A stretch of DNA of 64,000 nt from Polytrichum commune (taxonomy: Eukaryota; Streptophyta; Polytrichopsida; Polytrichales; Polytrichaceae). The notes below the pieces were generated by a model. The model did not search any database and was not told where the DNA came from. It was given only the letters and a program-made list of their open reading frames with translations. The stretch's first letter is position 1, and each line of letters starts with the position of its first letter. The position numbers and the translations under genes are program-made. Location of the stretch: contig OX485806.1 in assembly GCA_950295325.1 (NCBI GenBank), forward strand, positions 17,794,001 through 17,858,000. Reading direction: 5' to 3'. Below, piece by piece: positions 6,881 through 40,990 of the stretch.

Positions 6881-8982
6881 TATAAAGTGTGCTTTCAAGT
6901 GTTCCATGCGATCCCTCACATTCCGATCTCTTATTAGGGTAAATTTGTACATCAAACACTAACACGGACGGGTGCTAAATGGGGTACCATTACTTTAGAG
7001 GGTAGGCAATCTTGCTACATATTATCTCATACAATCACTTTGTACAAGTTCTATGAGTCGTGAGTCTTATGATCAAAACTATTGTCTTACATTACATAAA
7101 ATAGTTGAAACTAAGGTTCTATTTGGTTAAAGATCGTGGGAAATTGATTATCGGTACCTTGTAGAGGCATTGAAGAAACTCGCCCCTATCAAAGGAACAT
7201 AAAATTTTAGAGAAGAGAGAACACCTCTACATTGCTGATAAACCTAATTTTAAAACCTATTGCTCCATTCTCCTACAATTCTTAACCGGTGTACTGTTTC
7301 ATTGTAGTCTAAACTAGCCCTCCTTGAGTTAAACTCCACAAATTGGCTAAAAGGTGAGTTGGTGCATAAAGTTATCTGGATTCAATTAAGTACCTAATTA
7401 ACACGCTTAAATAGTGGGGGCCATGTTAATTAAATTTTACCAATATGACTTGTCATACTAGGGTTGGTGGGGCCAACCTCTCTTGCACGTGCTCGTATGG
7501 GATTTAGGAGGGTATGCCCACGTATGCCCAAATCTTGCATAGGTAAGACCCATGTGTCAATACATGAGTTAGAATCCCTTTAGAATAGGGCACAACCCTA
7601 GTCTAAATCCTATAATATTTAGAGTATTCAAAACAAACAATCAAACTAAAAATGGATGTCCGGTGAGTTTCTCCTATGTATCAAAATTAGACTCCAACCC
7701 AAATGAACTCTAATCAACTCCTAATAGAGTTGAGTTTCTCACATACGCACCAAACGACTTTGCATGATGTAAAAGTATGTTGCAACAAGCTTAGTTCACA
7801 CTCTCTAGTTTAGTATGCTCGTTGCATGGCTTCCAACTCCACTTTGGACTGCTCACCCGAAGTGATAGTTGACATATAAAATTTGATGACTCTAAATACC
7901 TTAGCTTACCAAATTGTCAAGGATAATGAAAATATGCTTAATTTGGTCTCTCGTCTTAAAGATGGACAATTGTATTTGAGTGATGAACGGTTGGGTGGGG
8001 ATCTAAGAACATACACTAGAACAATATGTATTGAAAAGAGACTGGGCTACGTGCTCAAATTTTATCAACCATTCTAGAGCAGTAATCAATTTAATGGGGG
8101 GGGGGGGGTGAGAGGGCTACATGGTCATTTAATAACTCGAAGACTATTCACTTTGGCAATGAATAGGATAGGATGAAGAAAATGGCGACGAGGATGATTT
8201 GGATTTTGGAAATCGTTTTGCACTAATCACATGTTTCATGTCATACGAGAAAACTGGGCTCATAGAGGAAAAATGCTTGTTTCATAGCCATTTGCCTTAA
8301 TGTATGCGGTGTTATGTTTCTTAATCGGACCCCAGTAGTTTGATTGGTGTGTGGTCCGATGAGGATCAAATAACAAACGACTTAAAGACATGTGTGCAAA
8401 AGAGGTTGGACTACCTCTAGATTTTGTATTAACTATTCCACACTCCACAACAAACACAATTGGGAAAAGACCTACTCAGTTACAAAAAATATGTATCAAC
8501 AAACAAATACCTCCAATAACCATAACTAAACTAAACTAAGGGGGAGGCCCAATTTTTAATGCGAGATTTGTTGATGCTTCATTCAAGTAGGTCATTTGAC
8601 ATTGCAACATAAGCTTTGGTGTGTAAATCTAATCGGTAGGAGTTGCAGAACATGAAAAACAAACTAAATAAGATATCCGAGGCATGGTTGCCTTATTACA
8701 ATGAGCCCACCGGCCACCATGATAAGATGTAAACTATGCCTATGAGACAAGCGAACTCTTGTTCAAAATAGGGCCAATGAGCTCACATTCATGTCAGTCG
8801 AAACACAAACGTTGAAATTTATTTCATTTCTTACCTAAAGGTAGATGGGATGTAAAATACTTGGTTTCTTCATTGGACCCTTATATTTGATTGGCATGTG
8901 GTTTGGTAAGGGTCAAAGAGCAAACATCTTAAAGTCACATGTTTAAAAGAGATTGGACGTTGTCTTCAAATGACAACAACTA
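6881..8982. other. Intergenic, diverged dispersed repeats
   Basis: No gene was recognised. There is a 13-nt G run at 8096-8108. 8290-8460 and 8870-8985 belong to a diverged dispersed family (motif GGTGTGTGGTCCGATGAGGA followed by AGAGATTGGAC) that recurs near 30090-30310, 33060-33250, 56040-56310, 57150-57425 and 62690-62960. Confidence 0.4.
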
Positions 8983-9590
8983 CTCTACACTCATTAGTGA
9001 AACCAATCGGGAGGACCTATGTATCCTATCAAGAAAATCAAAGAAACACGCACTTTTGATATCCATAATTAAATCAAGGGAGGTCTGATTTTCAACCCGG
9101 TTTTTGCAGATGTTTCAATCTTAGATTTGCTAACGGGCCACACGAGTTTCATTGTGTAAGTCTAATCGGTAGCAGTCGGAACTCAATAGTACCCACATAC
9201 AATACCTTACTCTACACTCATTAGTGAACCCAATGGGGAGGACCTATGTATCCTATCAAGAAAATCCAACAAACGTGCACTACCGATATCCACAATTAAA
9301 TCAATGGAGGTCCGATTTTCAATCCGGCTTGTGCAAACATGTCAATCGTAGATTTGCTAACGGGCCACACGAGTTTCGTTGTGTAAATCTAATTGGTAGC
9401 AGTCAGAACTCAACAACACCCACATACAATACCTTGCTCTACACTCATTAGTGAGACTTATGTATGCTATCAAACGCGCACTTCCGATATCCACAATTAA
9501 ATCAAGGGAGGTCCGATTTCCAATCCGGTTTTTGCAAACGTTTCAATCGTAGATTTGCTAACGGGCCACACGAGTTTCGTTGTGTAAATC

Positions 9591-11016
9591 TGTGAGGCCA
9601 AACCACCCACCCTTAAGCGTCCTAGTCCGGGTGAGGGAATGGGGATCACATTCATGTTTACATAACTCCCTCTTCCCAACTTCGTAAAAATCCATCACAT
9701 TTCCCATCAATCATTGCACACCAATCCATTCCACGATAATATTACAAGCGTTGACAAACGCTCTTCTCTATTATCACAATCATAACACACCCTATTGCGA
9801 CCCCCACATTACTCACATCCAAATTCAACCGCTAATCCTACCATCCAATACCTCGTGTTCTCCTAGCTTGCTAATGAACTAATTATCTAAATTAAAATTA
9901 GGTCATAACCTACTTAACTAACTAGCACCTAGTCTAGTGTAACACTACGGCTTCCCCCCCTTATATCACCTCGGTCCTTCAAACAATTGCCCTTCAAACC
10001 AACATTAAGCTCACATTACTGCCCGAATTCAACCCTGTAGCACCCGACAACTGCCCTTCAAACTAGCATTAAGCTCACATTGTTGTCCGAATTCGGCTCT
10101 GTAGCCTTGGCAGCTGCCCTTCAACCATCATTAAGCTCACACCCTTCAAACCAGCATTCAGCTCGCACTGCCACCAAAATTCAGCTCTGTAGCACTCGGT
10201 AGTTGCCCTTCAGACCAACATTAAGCTTGCACCCTTCAAACCAACATTAAGCTCACATCCTTCAAACCAACATTAAGCTCACATTGCTGTCCGAATTTGG
10301 TTCTGTAGCCTTGGCAGCTGCCCTTCAACCAGCATTCAGCTCGCACTGCCACCAGAATTCAACTCTGTAGCACTCGGCAACTGCCCTTCAAACCAACATT
10401 AAGCTCACATCCTTCAACGAACATTCAGCTCGCACTGCCACCATAATTCAGCTCTGTAGCACTCGGCAGCTGCCCTTCAAACCAACATTGTGCTTGCACC
10501 CTTCAAACCAACATTAAGCTCACATCCTTCAAACCAACATTAAGCTCACATTGCTGTCCGAATTCAGCTTGTGGCCTCGGCAGCTGCCCTTCAACCAACA
10601 TTCTCCTTCGGAAGTAAGGGAAGGGGGAGAAGAGAGGGAGAGAGAAGAGTGAGAGGAGAGGAGTGAAGGAAGGTGCACCCAAAGCCACACACCCCCTAAC
10701 CTTACCCAACTAAAATTAGATCAAGCCTATCCACTAAACCCTCCACCCCTAAAGCAACAAGGGAAGGCCTCAAATCAAACAATTAAACCCAAGGCCCTTC
10801 CCCTTTCTTAACACACACACTTAACTTAATTCAACCAACCCACTAATGCCGCTAAGCTTCTAATTAACCACACAAAATAGGCTTAAGGCCTAAAACATAA
10901 CTCCACACCAAGCCTCACTCTTTTTATACTTTTGATTGTTTCAATAACAACTTCAAATGCAATTCTAAGTAAATTCTAAACACAAAATAAATATGAGCAA
11001 CCATTTTGGGCTCATA
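9591..11016. mobile_element. Probable solo LTR (1426 bp) with internal minisatellite
   Basis: The insert begins TGTGAGGCC and ends GGGCTCATA, near-perfect short inverted termini (TG..CA type, last dinucleotide decayed to TA). It is flanked by the 5-bp direct repeat AAATC (9586-9590 and 11017-11021). Removing it restores an intact unit of the surrounding tandem array. No gag/pol frame was seen, so a solo LTR is the simplest reading. A degenerate minisatellite occupies about 9970-10610. Confidence 0.7.
9970..10610. repeat. Minisatellite inside the LTR
   Basis: Irregular head-to-tail units carry the modules CTGCCCTTCAAACCAACATT, AAGCTCACAT(T), GCTGTCCGAATTC, AGCTCTGTAGC and ACTCGGCAG. Modules combine in several orders with unit lengths between about 30 and 130 bp. 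Non-coding. Confidence 0.8.
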
Positions 11017-35140: not shown

Positions 35141-38100
35141 TCAGTGACAGGCTCCCATTTGGCCCTCATTGACCACTACACCAAACTTCTCATCGTTTTC
35201 ATTCAAGTTGCACGGAGGTAAGGACTGGGCACTGACAGTTGAACTTCCCTTCCTCATCTCCTGAAGGGTCCGCAGGGCAGCAACTGTGCTCTTGAATATA
35301 CCTCCCGCAGCTTCACCTACTCTAAACAAAAGCTCAACATGAGGAAAGGGCCTTCCAGAAGAAGAAACAAAAGCTGATGAAAACAGATAAAGGAGTGTAC
35401 ATCCAGAAGGACAACAACTAGGCCCCAAGAAGGATAGAATTAACTGAATTTGAAAAATAAGAGAAAACTAAGAACTGGTTGGCAGGTGTAGTAATAACCT
35501 GTTGGATACAGTAGCCCTTGGGCTTCTCTTGAGGCATCTTCTTCTCCTTCAACCGGTTGTACATCAATGCTTTCTACTAGAGGAGGTGGTGGGAACATGG
35601 ACAAAAGGTTCTCACAGTCCTGCACAAGCTTTGAAAGAAGCTCCGTGGCAAAAAATGGCTGCAAAAGGACTCGTCTAATAAATGGGAGACGCAGCACAGC
35701 TCCTGTGCGCTTATCATGCTTCTTCAAAATTTTCACAAGCCCTGGAGGAAAAAAAATAATTTTGAGTCGCTGCTCGTTGCAAAAGCCCTACTAGATTCAT
35801 GATTTCTTGTAGATTTGAAGTGCGTACTTGTTAAACTGCTGAACCAGAAACCACTACCTCCATCATCCAAAGCCATACAAAATTTATGGCATCAATTCCA
35901 ACGTTCTAACACCCAAATAAGCTAGACTCTGGCCTTCAGAATCCTCACCCTCTGATTGCTCATAAACAATAAGTGACTACAATAGGTACAATTGAAAGCT
36001 GGAAGTAATAACATGAAACAAACCTGTGTAATTTAGGGCACTGTAGCTCTCCATGAGTATAACCTCCCCATGAAATGTGACAAGACCAGTTCGGATGGTG
36101 AGGAGTTCATCATTCCAATCCCTCTGATAGATGTGGGCACCATTTTGTTGAGTCACCCTCTCCAGTCTCTGCTTCAGCTCCTGCAAGCCATCATGGAAAA
36201 TCTTAGCAACTTCCCTAAAGTTCTTCAATACAGTATTTGTATCAAGATAGTAAGCCTCCTCTGCTCTGACCCATCATAAACTGTGGGGTCGACACTCTTC
36301 CATTCTGATTTTAGCAACTTTCGCAAGTACATATTTACATAGTTTCAATAGGAAGGATCCCTTGACACTATTGAAGCTTGTCCATCTAACGCTTGTTAAC
36401 TTGCACATTCCAGAGAATTTCTACAAGACTTGAAGGAAAGCACATAATGTGCAGCTATTCATCGTCCATTTACCATTGACTATATTGGACTTTGTCCATC
36501 TAACGCTTGTTAACTTACACATTCGTGAGAATTTCTATTAAGAATTAAAGGAATGCACGTAATATGGGGAGCTCTTCCTCATACATTTACCAAGTCACGA
36601 CCTACAGGTGAAAAATTACAACCCAGTTTGGTTCTCCCACCAAGGCCGTAAATTCAACACTGGTAATAAGACCACTCCAAGACTACATGATTGAGAGGAT
36701 CGCATGGAACCTCACACTAGTCCACACCAAAGCTAAAAAAACTTCAAGAATTTGTTTGGTGAAGTAAACATGGAAACATGAGTTGAACCTGCTTACAAGT
36801 GTCCTTCTGCTTCAAGAGCAGTGAGTATAAAGTCAACAAATGAGATCTCCTGTCTACACACTGTAGAATCTAGAGAGCTGAGGTCGTAAGAACAGAATTT
36901 GATCAGAAATGAAACACGGTCTGCTATTGCAAGAATGCTCAGAAAACTGAAGAATATCTACTGAACTTCCTTGAAGAGTTTCATGTGCATATAGGTACCA
37001 CCCATGATCAAGGGGGTTGCAGGGGACACGACCAGGACAACCAATGATATGCAGGATGGACCTAATGGCGTCCATCCTGCAATACTTTACACATACAAGG
37101 GGTGGTAGCTGCTAAAGATTGGTCACAATGCAGGGCAAGTGTCGCAGGACTGGGCTTCTGGGCAAGTGTCGCTGCTGGGATAGTGCTAGGCTAAGCTTAG
37201 CATGCAAGCCTCGTACTTTTCTTCTAAATATCTACACCAAATGCTGTCCAAGGCACAGGGCCTCAAGAACACAATAAATTTCATTATGTCGATAATACAC
37301 TAGTGAATTATGACTACATTGTGGAGCACGTATATGGACAAAGACCTCCTCATGCGAGTATGTGGCGGATATTCTGAAGGTACTGTATAGGTAAGACTTG
37401 ATGTCAAGGCGATTTTCTAATAGTCTCTAAAGTCGAGCATTCACAAGCTAACCGTTTCGATATGTACATGTCCAGAGCCATGAATACTAAAAGAACGAGA
37501 GCTTTCCGAGTCCCCGACAGACCTACATTCTTCGACAATAAACATGAAAATTATACCCTCTCCCCTTACATGGATAATTCTGCTACCTGAGGTTTAGAAA
37601 CCGGCAGAATTTCACACCACGCAGCAAACCTGTAATTGGAACCATGCATGCACACCTGTAGGCGTATAACATCGTCCTCTTCTTTACGACATAGACGAAT
37701 GACATAGACCGACATTCTTCGATGGCAAACATAAACTCCTTACCCTGCCCCCTACATGAAAAAAATCTTCTACCTGAGGTTTTGGAGACCGGTATGGGAC
37801 CTTCACACCGCGCAGCTAAGCTGAAATTGGAGCCATGCATGCGTACCTGTAGGTGTATAACATAGTCCTCATCTTTTTATGACACAGGCGTATGACATAG
37901 ACCTACATTATTCGACGCCAAACATGAACTCTTTATCATCCCCCTACATGGACAAGAAAATCCGCTACCTAAGGTTTCAAGACCAGCCAAATTTTCACAT
38001 CACGCAAGGGGCGTGCCTGCAATAGAAACCATGCATGCGTATGGCATAGTCCACTTCGTTTCCAAGATAGGCCTATGACATAGACCTACATTCTTCGACA

Positions 38101-39108
38101 GCAAACATGAGCTATTTATCGTCCCCCCTACATAGAATTAGCTGCTACCTGAGACCGGTAGAATTCCACACCGTGCGACGAACAAACCTGTAGTCGGAAC
38201 CATGCATGATTACCTGTAGGCGTATGACATAGACCTACATTCTTCGACGACAAACATGAACTCTGTCTCCTCCCTCAACACGGACAAAAACGTGCTACCT
38301 GAGGTTTTGAGACCGGTAAAATCTCCACACCGTGCAACGACGAACAAAACCTGTAATGGTAACCATCCATCCCCAAAGCATGCGAGATGGATTGACTTAC
38401 CTGTAGGCGTATGACATAGTCCTCTTCTTTCTCCGTGAAGAAGCTGTTGAATTTCTCCAGCTCCACATTCAACAGGCGCAGAAACTCCTCCTCCTCGCTG
38501 GTCAGCTCCTTCTCCTCCCCGACACGCTGCGGGGCACGTCCCCGGGCGGCCAGAATCTCTCTCTCGATAGGGGCCGCCGCGGCCGCCACAATCCCCTCAT
38601 CCACCACACTCGCAACACCTTTTCTCTTCGTCCCTGCCACCACAGCCGCAACCAACGCACCCTCGTCATCCTCCTCTTCCGCCACTTCCTTTTCCTCCTC
38701 TCCTTTCCCTCTTTCCGCCACCGCAGCAGCATCCGCACACCTCACCACAACAAACGCCTCGCCATCGCTCCCTTTGGCTTTCTTCACCGCAGGAGGCGCC
38801 TCGTCTTCCTCCGCTTTAACATCCGGCCACCGCACCTTCACATCTCGCGTTGTCGTCACCTCCACCGAAGGCCTCTCTTCTTCCTCCTCCTGCTCCTCCT
38901 CAACCTCAGCCCCCTCCCTCGCAATTCTTGCTTCCGCTGCTCCATTGACGGCCACAACGACGTCAGGCTCAAAAGCTGCGTCAGGCAAGGAGTTGCTCGC
39001 TAAGAACGACTTGATTCTCTTCTTGAGCTGCTTGTAGCTTAGGAACTTGTCCCTGTACTCGGGGGGCAGCTCCTCCAGCAACAGCTGCAGGAGCTTTCCA
39101 TACTTCAT
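35141..39108 (-). CDS. SPX-domain protein (SPX1-4-like)
   Basis: SPX-only proteins bind inositol pyrophosphates and, in plants, sequester PHR-type MYB factors when phosphate is ample. Four coding exons: 38401-39108, 36024-36180, 35499-35741, 35141-35319; 428 aa, all GT..AG (exon 4 acceptor read as TTTAGAG). The start [10 protein letters not shown] matches the family's MKFGK start. SPX signatures are [15 protein letters not shown] (21-35), [19 protein letters not shown] (206-224), [20 protein letters not shown] (about 282-301, basic ligand-binding helix) and [14 protein letters not shown]. The C-terminal part [20 protein letters not shown] is typical of SPX1-3. No MFS, EXS or RING domain follows, so this is the stand-alone class. 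It is longer than usual (about 250-320 aa) because residues about 45-200 are an acidic, Ala/Val-rich insertion splitting the first SPX subdomain. Intron 1 (2220 bp) carries an unusual array. Confidence 0.9.
36377..36604 (-). repeat. ~114-bp direct duplication in SPX intron 1
   Basis: Two units starting at 36377 and 36491 share TTGTCCATCTAACGCTTGTT and GAGAATTTCTA, with CATTTACCA near their ends. Intronic and non-coding. Confidence 0.7.
37515..38445 (-). repeat. ~186-bp tandem array built from the SPX exon1/intron1 boundary
   Basis: The element ATACGCCTACAG|GT (minus strand), which is the end of exon 1 plus its donor, recurs with variants. Starts of GGCGTAT-type motifs on the plus strand are 37661, 37852, 38038, 38219 and 38406 (the real exon end); spacings are 191, 186, 181 and 187. 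Units also share ATGCATGGTTCC, CAAAACCTCAGGTAG and GTTTGTCGTCGAAGAATGTA. The copy ending at 37656 still reads [10 protein letters not shown], against [10 protein letters not shown] in the exon. Confidence 0.85.
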
Positions 39109-40187: not shown

Positions 40188-40990
40188 TAGTTACAAATGA
40201 ACCGGTCGAGTTCGAGATGTAACCGGTGGAGTTCAAGACATAACTGGTCGAAGGTCGAGACACAACCGGTGGAGTTCGAGACGTAACCAGTCGAAGGTCA
40301 AGACTTCACGAAACACTTGCCCATCGTTTTAGAGGAATCTAGAGAATATGCCTCGAATCAATGAAGGAGAACCCGAAAGATGTCGATATGTGATGAACCA
40401 GTTGAGTTCAAGACATAATCGGTCAAAGGTCAAGGCTTCACGAAAAAACTTTGCCCGTCAATTTAAAGGAACCTAGAGGATATGCCTCGAATTAATGAAG
40501 AAAACCCCGAAAGATGTCGATATGTGATGAACCGGTTGAGTTCGAGACATAATCGGTCAAAGGTCAAGGCTTCACGAAAAAACTTTGCCCGTCAATTTAA
40601 AGGAATCTAGAGGATATGCCTCGAATTAATGAAGAAAACCCCGAAAGATGTCGATATGTGATGAACCGGTTGAGTTACAAGTGAACCGCTTGAGTTTGAG
40701 ACATAATCAGTCAAAGGTCAAGACTTCTCGAAACCTTGCCCATCGTTTTAGAGGAATCTAGAGAATATGCCTCGAATTAATGAAGAACACCCCGAAAGAT
40801 GTCGACGTGTATTGAACCGATTGAGTTTAATGCATAGCCGGTCAAAGTTCAAGACTTCACGAAAAACCTTGCATGTCATTTTGGAGGAATCTAGAGAACA
40901 TGCCTTTAATTAATAAAGAAAAACCGAAAGACGTTGACATGTAGCCAGTTGGACTTGGAAACACCAAGGATTTTGACCGACTATGTCCCA
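40188..40990. repeat. Tandem array, 137-bp unit (family J)
   Basis: GAAAGATGTCGATATGTGAT recurs near 40376, 40513 and 40650, giving a 137-bp period. Two more diverged units follow (near 40795 and 40924) and a shorter run of the GGTCGAGTTCGAGA/TAACCGGT module precedes. Each unit also has AAGGTCAAGGCTTCACGAAA and ATATGCCTCGAATTAATGAA. Single copies are dispersed at 22318, 30845 and 55119. Non-coding. Confidence 0.85.

Follow-up and report, generated by a model that had tools for sequence, protein, structure and literature searches.

Intronic minisatellites generally consist, like the array described here with its ~186-bp units, of diverged head-to-tail copies within an intron, but the present unit departs from them in that it includes coding sequence and a 5' splice site. 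Tandem duplications that cross a splice boundary are already known. According to the available part of one report, a duplication of this kind made a new intron in the RdRp gene of potato (PMC4974935), and the same text describes the duplication of AGGT proto-splice sites as a means of intron gain, to which some novel introns of Drosophila have been ascribed (PMC2891723, likewise in its available part). The locus reported here shares with potato RdRp a splice-boundary tandem duplication that copied splice signals in a plant gene, and with AGGT duplication, as outlined in these texts, the duplicated CAG|GT junctions, which are potential new splice sites. However, as far as the accessible text goes, the intron 1/exon 2 boundary was crossed in potato and the new intron was detected, whereas the array described here repeats the exon 1/intron 1 boundary four times within the intron. 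In contrast with intron gain by AGGT duplication, as described in the same sources, these copies are located within an intron that already existed, and they are weak as acceptors.

Among the matches listed in our literature search, which was judged by titles and the starts of abstracts and had subscription papers outside its scope, none was recognisable as a case of a 5' splice site covered by a multi-copy array, and none reported decoy donors for an SPX gene. The accessible text of a paper on the SPX family makes no mention of 'intron' (PMC8717665), and splicing is discussed, in the available part of another source, as a layer of low-phosphate responses (PMC12943880). What is new here is the comparison with a paralogue that is free of the array and whose donor resembles the decoys rather than the authentic donor.

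The SPX gene model and the array in its first intron

The array lies on the minus strand of the window, namely, the 64-kb stretch of DNA analysed in this study (C4:17794001-17858000), in what appears, from its modelled exons, to be the gene of a stand-alone SPX protein. These exons were modelled without transcripts. Exon 1 (38401..39108, 236 codons, ending in phase 0) was identified by its translation and by a match of the segment 38403-39108 to Pfam PF03105 (SPX; E 9e-14), the Pfam scan having covered this exon. The modelled intron 1 (36181..38400, 2220 nt) starts at the donor CAG|GTAAGT and ends at the acceptor CTTGCAG, followed by GAGCTGAAG; it precedes the modelled exons 2 (36024..36180, 157 nt), 3 (35499..35741) and 4, the last of which runs to the stop codon (about 35141..35319) and has an acceptor that is one among several possible. 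In a stand-alone SPX protein, no second domain (EXS, MFS or RING) follows SPX; the modelled protein stops at 35141, after 428 aa. It was matched by phmmer to SPX domain-containing protein 1 (PDB 7e40; E 2e-51), so that both Pfam and phmmer recognise the SPX domain expected of a stand-alone SPX gene. The gene seems ordinary among stand-alone SPX sensors, except for a long acidic, alanine-rich insert in exon 1.

The chain in 7e40, which we take to be a rice protein, shares with the protein modelled here an SPX domain with a KILKK-DK lysine cluster, since KILKKHDK, encoded by exon 3, aligns to KILKKYDK. This stretch presumably corresponds to K143/K146/K147/K150 of rice SPX2, an assignment read from the 7e40 alignment and general knowledge rather than from a direct alignment to SPX2. 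According to the available text, K143, K146, K147 and K150 of rice SPX2 belong to its InsP6-binding surface (PMC8948245).

Self-BLAST, repeat families and unit alignment delimited five units with a period of ~186 bp (37517..38433, minus strand), each consisting of the end of exon 1 plus ~155 nt of intron. Unit U0 holds the real exon 1/intron 1 junction, and four further units, U1 to U4, lie inside intron 1. Read down the minus strand, in plus-strand coordinates, the units start at 38433 (U0), 38232 (U1), 38065 (U2), 37880 (U3) and 37687 (U4), and the array ends at 37517. The initial annotation had noticed that the end of exon 1 recurs with its donor at this period, and the recurrence is borne out by self-BLAST alignments of up to 718 columns (70% identity, E 6e-78) and by a unit spacing of 183-191 in the five-copy repeat families D2, D6 and D7 (191, 184, 183 and 187 for D7). 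A minisatellite is defined by head-to-tail copies, at a single locus, of a unit of tens to ~200 bp, and the five units here conform to this. Tandem Repeats Finder covers the array incompletely, reporting 37611-37977 with a period of 191. The final unit closes with ..GTAGGTCTG, at which point the other units continue into a second exon-end-like stretch.

The copied junctions named in that annotation are all present. First, copy U1 (38213..38232) keeps an exon-end remnant of ~21 nt and the decoy donor CAG|GTAATC, whose first intronic base is 38213. Second, copies U3 (37846..37880) and U4 (37655..37687) keep ~30 nt of the exon end each, followed by the decoys CAG|GTACGC (37846) and CAG|GTGTGC (37655), respectively; both preserve the reading of the exon end, so the coding end was itself copied, as had been proposed. 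Copy U2 (38033..38065) retains an exon-end remnant without a donor: compared with U3, it misses CTACAGGTACGC between ACGC repeats, and its donor was apparently lost by this 12-nt deletion. CAG|GT is thus kept in three of the four intronic copies. Counting the three decoys, CAGGT occurs 10 times in the 884 nt of intronic array, versus once in the remaining 1336 nt of intron 1.

Two further features of this intron were recorded. Just inside the authentic donor (38365-38400, minus strand) there is additional sequence that the other units lack and that contains the inverted repeat ATCCATC...GATGGAT; and towards the 3' end of intron 1 there is a second, two-copy tandem duplication (36359-36592, spacing 114-117 nt).

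Tandem arrays are prone to assembly errors, and this general weakness is what speaks for an artefact. However, pairwise identity among the five aligned units is 71-80% over ungapped columns, a difference of 20-29% that makes the array old and hardly an artefact, and the intronic array matched a single place in a genome of 407.8 Mb assembled in 64 contigs (a count that may be a lower bound, as the search skips very common words). We therefore give an assembly error next to no credence. The 20 control loci, 10 kb each and spread evenly over C2 and C4, gave no match to the array. The array is thus real and old, an intronic minisatellite in which a splice junction has been copied. The copies had previously been described as having begun to diverge, which is right in direction and understated in degree; copies this diverged do not suggest current copy-number variation.

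An array over a splice junction is not surprising in this genome, where tandem arrays are common. With a period of at least 50 and a score of at least 200, four arrays were counted in the window and 10 in the 200 kb of controls (6 of 20 loci, with 4 of the 10 in one locus). Given 44 modelled splice junctions and 2756 array bases, ~1.9 junctions would be expected within arrays under uniform placement, selection being ignored. Two other arrays of the window lie at 8981-9454 and 9983-10603 (periods 227 and 64-267, respectively), and the unit of the former has a 73% copy in one control locus (L027).

Copied donors and predicted pseudo-exons

Donors were scored with a general plant donor matrix and by the predicted energy of their duplex with the 5' end of U1 RNA. 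As a local yardstick we used the 19 modelled donors of a neighbouring Argonaute gene (plus strand, ~14.3 kb to ~21.4 kb, with a PAZ match), in which ambiguous junctions were resolved in favour of the expected peptide. The authentic donor at 38400 (CAG|GTAAGT, GTAAGTCA) is the best in intron 1, with 11.8 bits and -12.1 kcal/mol, and exceeds all 19 Argonaute donors by either measure. The decoys at 38213, 37846 and 37655 score 8.5, 8.7 and 8.0 bits, respectively, compared with 8.6 for the modelled donor of exon 2, and so fall within the 2.4-11.2 bits of the modelled Argonaute donors, of which they exceed 16, 17 and 14 in bits and 14, 12 and 12 in duplex energy (-8.1 kcal/mol for the decoy of copy U1). 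Thus, the decoys look competent as donors, with the authentic one the best.

Translation continued past exon 1 meets its first in-frame stop at 38277, 41 codons further on, which lies upstream of every decoy; a product extended towards a decoy would lack exons 2-4 and, with them, KILKKHDK. Given this premature stop and the stronger authentic donor, the decoys alone are unlikely to yield a functional isoform. The idea, put forward in the initial annotation, that competing donors could change isoform output is accordingly compatible with the scores of the decoys but runs against both the strength of the authentic donor and the position of the stop.

Since every copied junction juxtaposes AG and GT, the CAG|GT junctions might alternatively serve as recursive, or ratchet, splice sites for the stepwise removal of intron 1. 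This would call for a good acceptor beside each good donor, and the junctions score -0.6, 0.5 and 1.7 bits as acceptors, against 1.1-13.0 bits for the modelled acceptors scored leave-one-out, 18 of 20 of which exceed 1.7. Recursive splicing was rejected on these scores and is very improbable.

The acceptor matrix was built from 20 modelled acceptors, namely, 18 of the 19 from the Argonaute gene (one ambiguous site was omitted) and two from the SPX gene itself. It picked out good acceptors within the array at 37751 (11.4 bits) and 38016 (9.1 bits), which together with the decoy donors delimit two predicted pseudo-exons on the minus strand: one of 170 nt with stops inside (37847..38016; donor 8.7 bits) and one of 96 nt with an in-frame stop (37656..37751; donor 8.0 bits). 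We counted pairs of an acceptor and a donor 30-400 nt apart in intron 1, leaving out the authentic donor, and in 160 control segments from both strands of 200 kb. At 7 bits for the acceptor and 8 for the donor there are 4 pairs versus 0.57 expected (a count of 4 was attained in 3 of the 160 control segments); at 9 and 8 bits, 4 versus 0.2 (none of 160); and at 4 and 6 bits, 27 versus 11.3 (4 of 160). All four strong predicted pseudo-exons contain stops, and one of them uses a donor, 37743, that is not a copied junction. Because the thresholds were set after the array had been seen, the pairs share sites and the matrix includes two SPX sites, this excess over controls that are genome segments rather than introns is only a lead. 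Of the cassettes, 20-350 nt long, that have a decoy as their donor, only a 21-nt micro-exon (VYVIRLQ), whose acceptor scores 3.2 bits, keeps the phase without a stop.

It is tempting to speculate that the array is a working splicing switch, in which decoys and stop-containing pseudo-exons would lower the amount of SPX protein, perhaps according to phosphate status. The ranks of the decoys among the Argonaute donors and the excess of stop-containing pairs agree with such a role, as does the clustering of conserved columns examined below. The stronger authentic donor, the loss of one decoy by deletion, and the post hoc thresholds, non-intron controls and shared sites behind the four pairs argue against it, and we regard a switch as unlikely.

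Within the unit, conserved and variable blocks alternate. None of 3000 column shuffles was as clustered, in a test that is too liberal; in neutral simulations passed through the same alignment procedure, the observed clustering ratio was reached in 0 of 40 and 4 of 200 runs, that is, it exceeded 196 of the 200. Elsewhere, the tandem array upstream of the gene gave no clustering (1877 of 3000 shuffles), and for the arrays of two copies at 9991 and 8981 the numbers were 3 and 90 of 3000, respectively, so that clustering is not special to the intronic array. The exon-end/donor block has a mean column identity of 0.86 versus 0.73 elsewhere (p 0.007 for random columns); its preferential conservation was found unconvincing, as 15 of 192 contiguous windows equal it. 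We take these results as weak evidence of sequence constraint on the units. Conserved blocks, for example near GTCGAAGAATGTAGGTCTATGTCAT and CATGCATGG, could also belong to an intronic regulatory element, a transcriptional or splicing enhancer with the copied donors incidental to it. This alternative is quite improbable, given the modest clustering, the array-free paralogue, the absence from the intronic array of P1BS (GNATATNC), the PHR1-binding motif, and the lack of Rfam hits between 34500 and 41500 at E values of up to 0.5.

The paralogue and the origin of the array

The only other SPX gene found by protein search (C2:44642949-44644661) has its intron 1 at the same position, after ..KEEEYVIRLQ. 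This intron spans 373 nt and has no array, which suggests that the array is derived. It was earlier proposed that unequal crossing-over had amplified a unit spanning the junction; the amplification itself is supported, and crossing-over and replication slippage would look alike in the sequence.

The donor of the paralogue, CAG|GTATGCAT (9.1 bits), differs at positions +3 to +8 by 2, 1 and 1 nucleotides from the decoys at 38213, 37846 and 37655, respectively, and by 4 from the authentic donor; only 0.3% of random donors drawn from the plant donor matrix were equally close to the decoys. This resemblance suggests that the ancestral donor signal survives in the decoys, and that it is the authentic donor which has changed and become optimal, apparently through the extra sequence just inside the intron. 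Such a change fits compensatory strengthening, and a chance insertion explains this single case equally well.

Taken to its end, the first of these options would make the duplicated junctions a bank of decoys and stop-containing pseudo-exons; competition with them would have pushed the authentic donor from its ancestral form, GTATGCAT, to the optimum, GTAAGT, and what decoy use remained would tune the phosphate sensor. We consider this scenario speculative and unlikely; if true, SPX intron 1 would be a natural record of a splice site strengthened against its own copies.

We instead favour, with fair assurance, an old intronic minisatellite whose unit took in the end of exon 1 by happenstance, and which is most likely neutral and spliced around. 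A first tandem duplication would have joined the intron at ..GTAGGTCT.. to the exon end at ..GGACTATGTC.. through short similarity. Further rounds would then have produced the four intronic copies, followed by divergence without homogenisation. The copied donors would most likely be passed over by the spliceosome, since the authentic donor directly follows exon 1 and no other donor in the intron is as good; a copied donor that was used would give a transcript with a premature stop, which would probably be degraded.

This neutral origin is favoured by the array with its diverged units, the rank of the authentic donor, the stop at 38277, the ordinariness of tandem arrays, the array-free paralogue and the single genomic place. 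Against it count the block clustering, the exon-end identity, the pseudo-exon excess and the decoy ranks, as well as the shift of the authentic donor to the optimum, which is compatible with selection having acted against decoys. Should the decoys be silent, the locus would offer a natural test of how well the spliceosome discriminates an authentic 5' splice site from similar sequences that follow it at 187-745 nt; should they be used, a repeat array would regulate a phosphate sensor.

P1BS motifs upstream of the SPX gene

Another tandem array (40200-40943, period 134-151 bp) precedes the SPX gene, and four of its five units contain P1BS (40344, 40478, 40612 and 40763). In the accessible parts of the respective reports, four tandem P1BS on a minimal promoter gave a phosphate-starvation response (PMC2936532), and a PHR1 construct bound tandem P1BS ~50-fold better than a single site (PMC5651819). 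The cluster accordingly looked like a tandem enhancer, a candidate that was rejected because the unit is a dispersed repeat with copies in 2 of the 20 control loci. None of those control-locus copies, two nearly full and one partial, contains an exact P1BS. A related repeat copy with P1BS is found ~2.8 kb upstream of the ATG of the paralogue. Closer to the SPX gene, on the minus strand, P1BS GAATATGC (39849-39842) lies ~20 nt upstream of the TATA-like TATATATAAA (39820-39811), and this pair is a plausible PHR-regulated core promoter for SPX.
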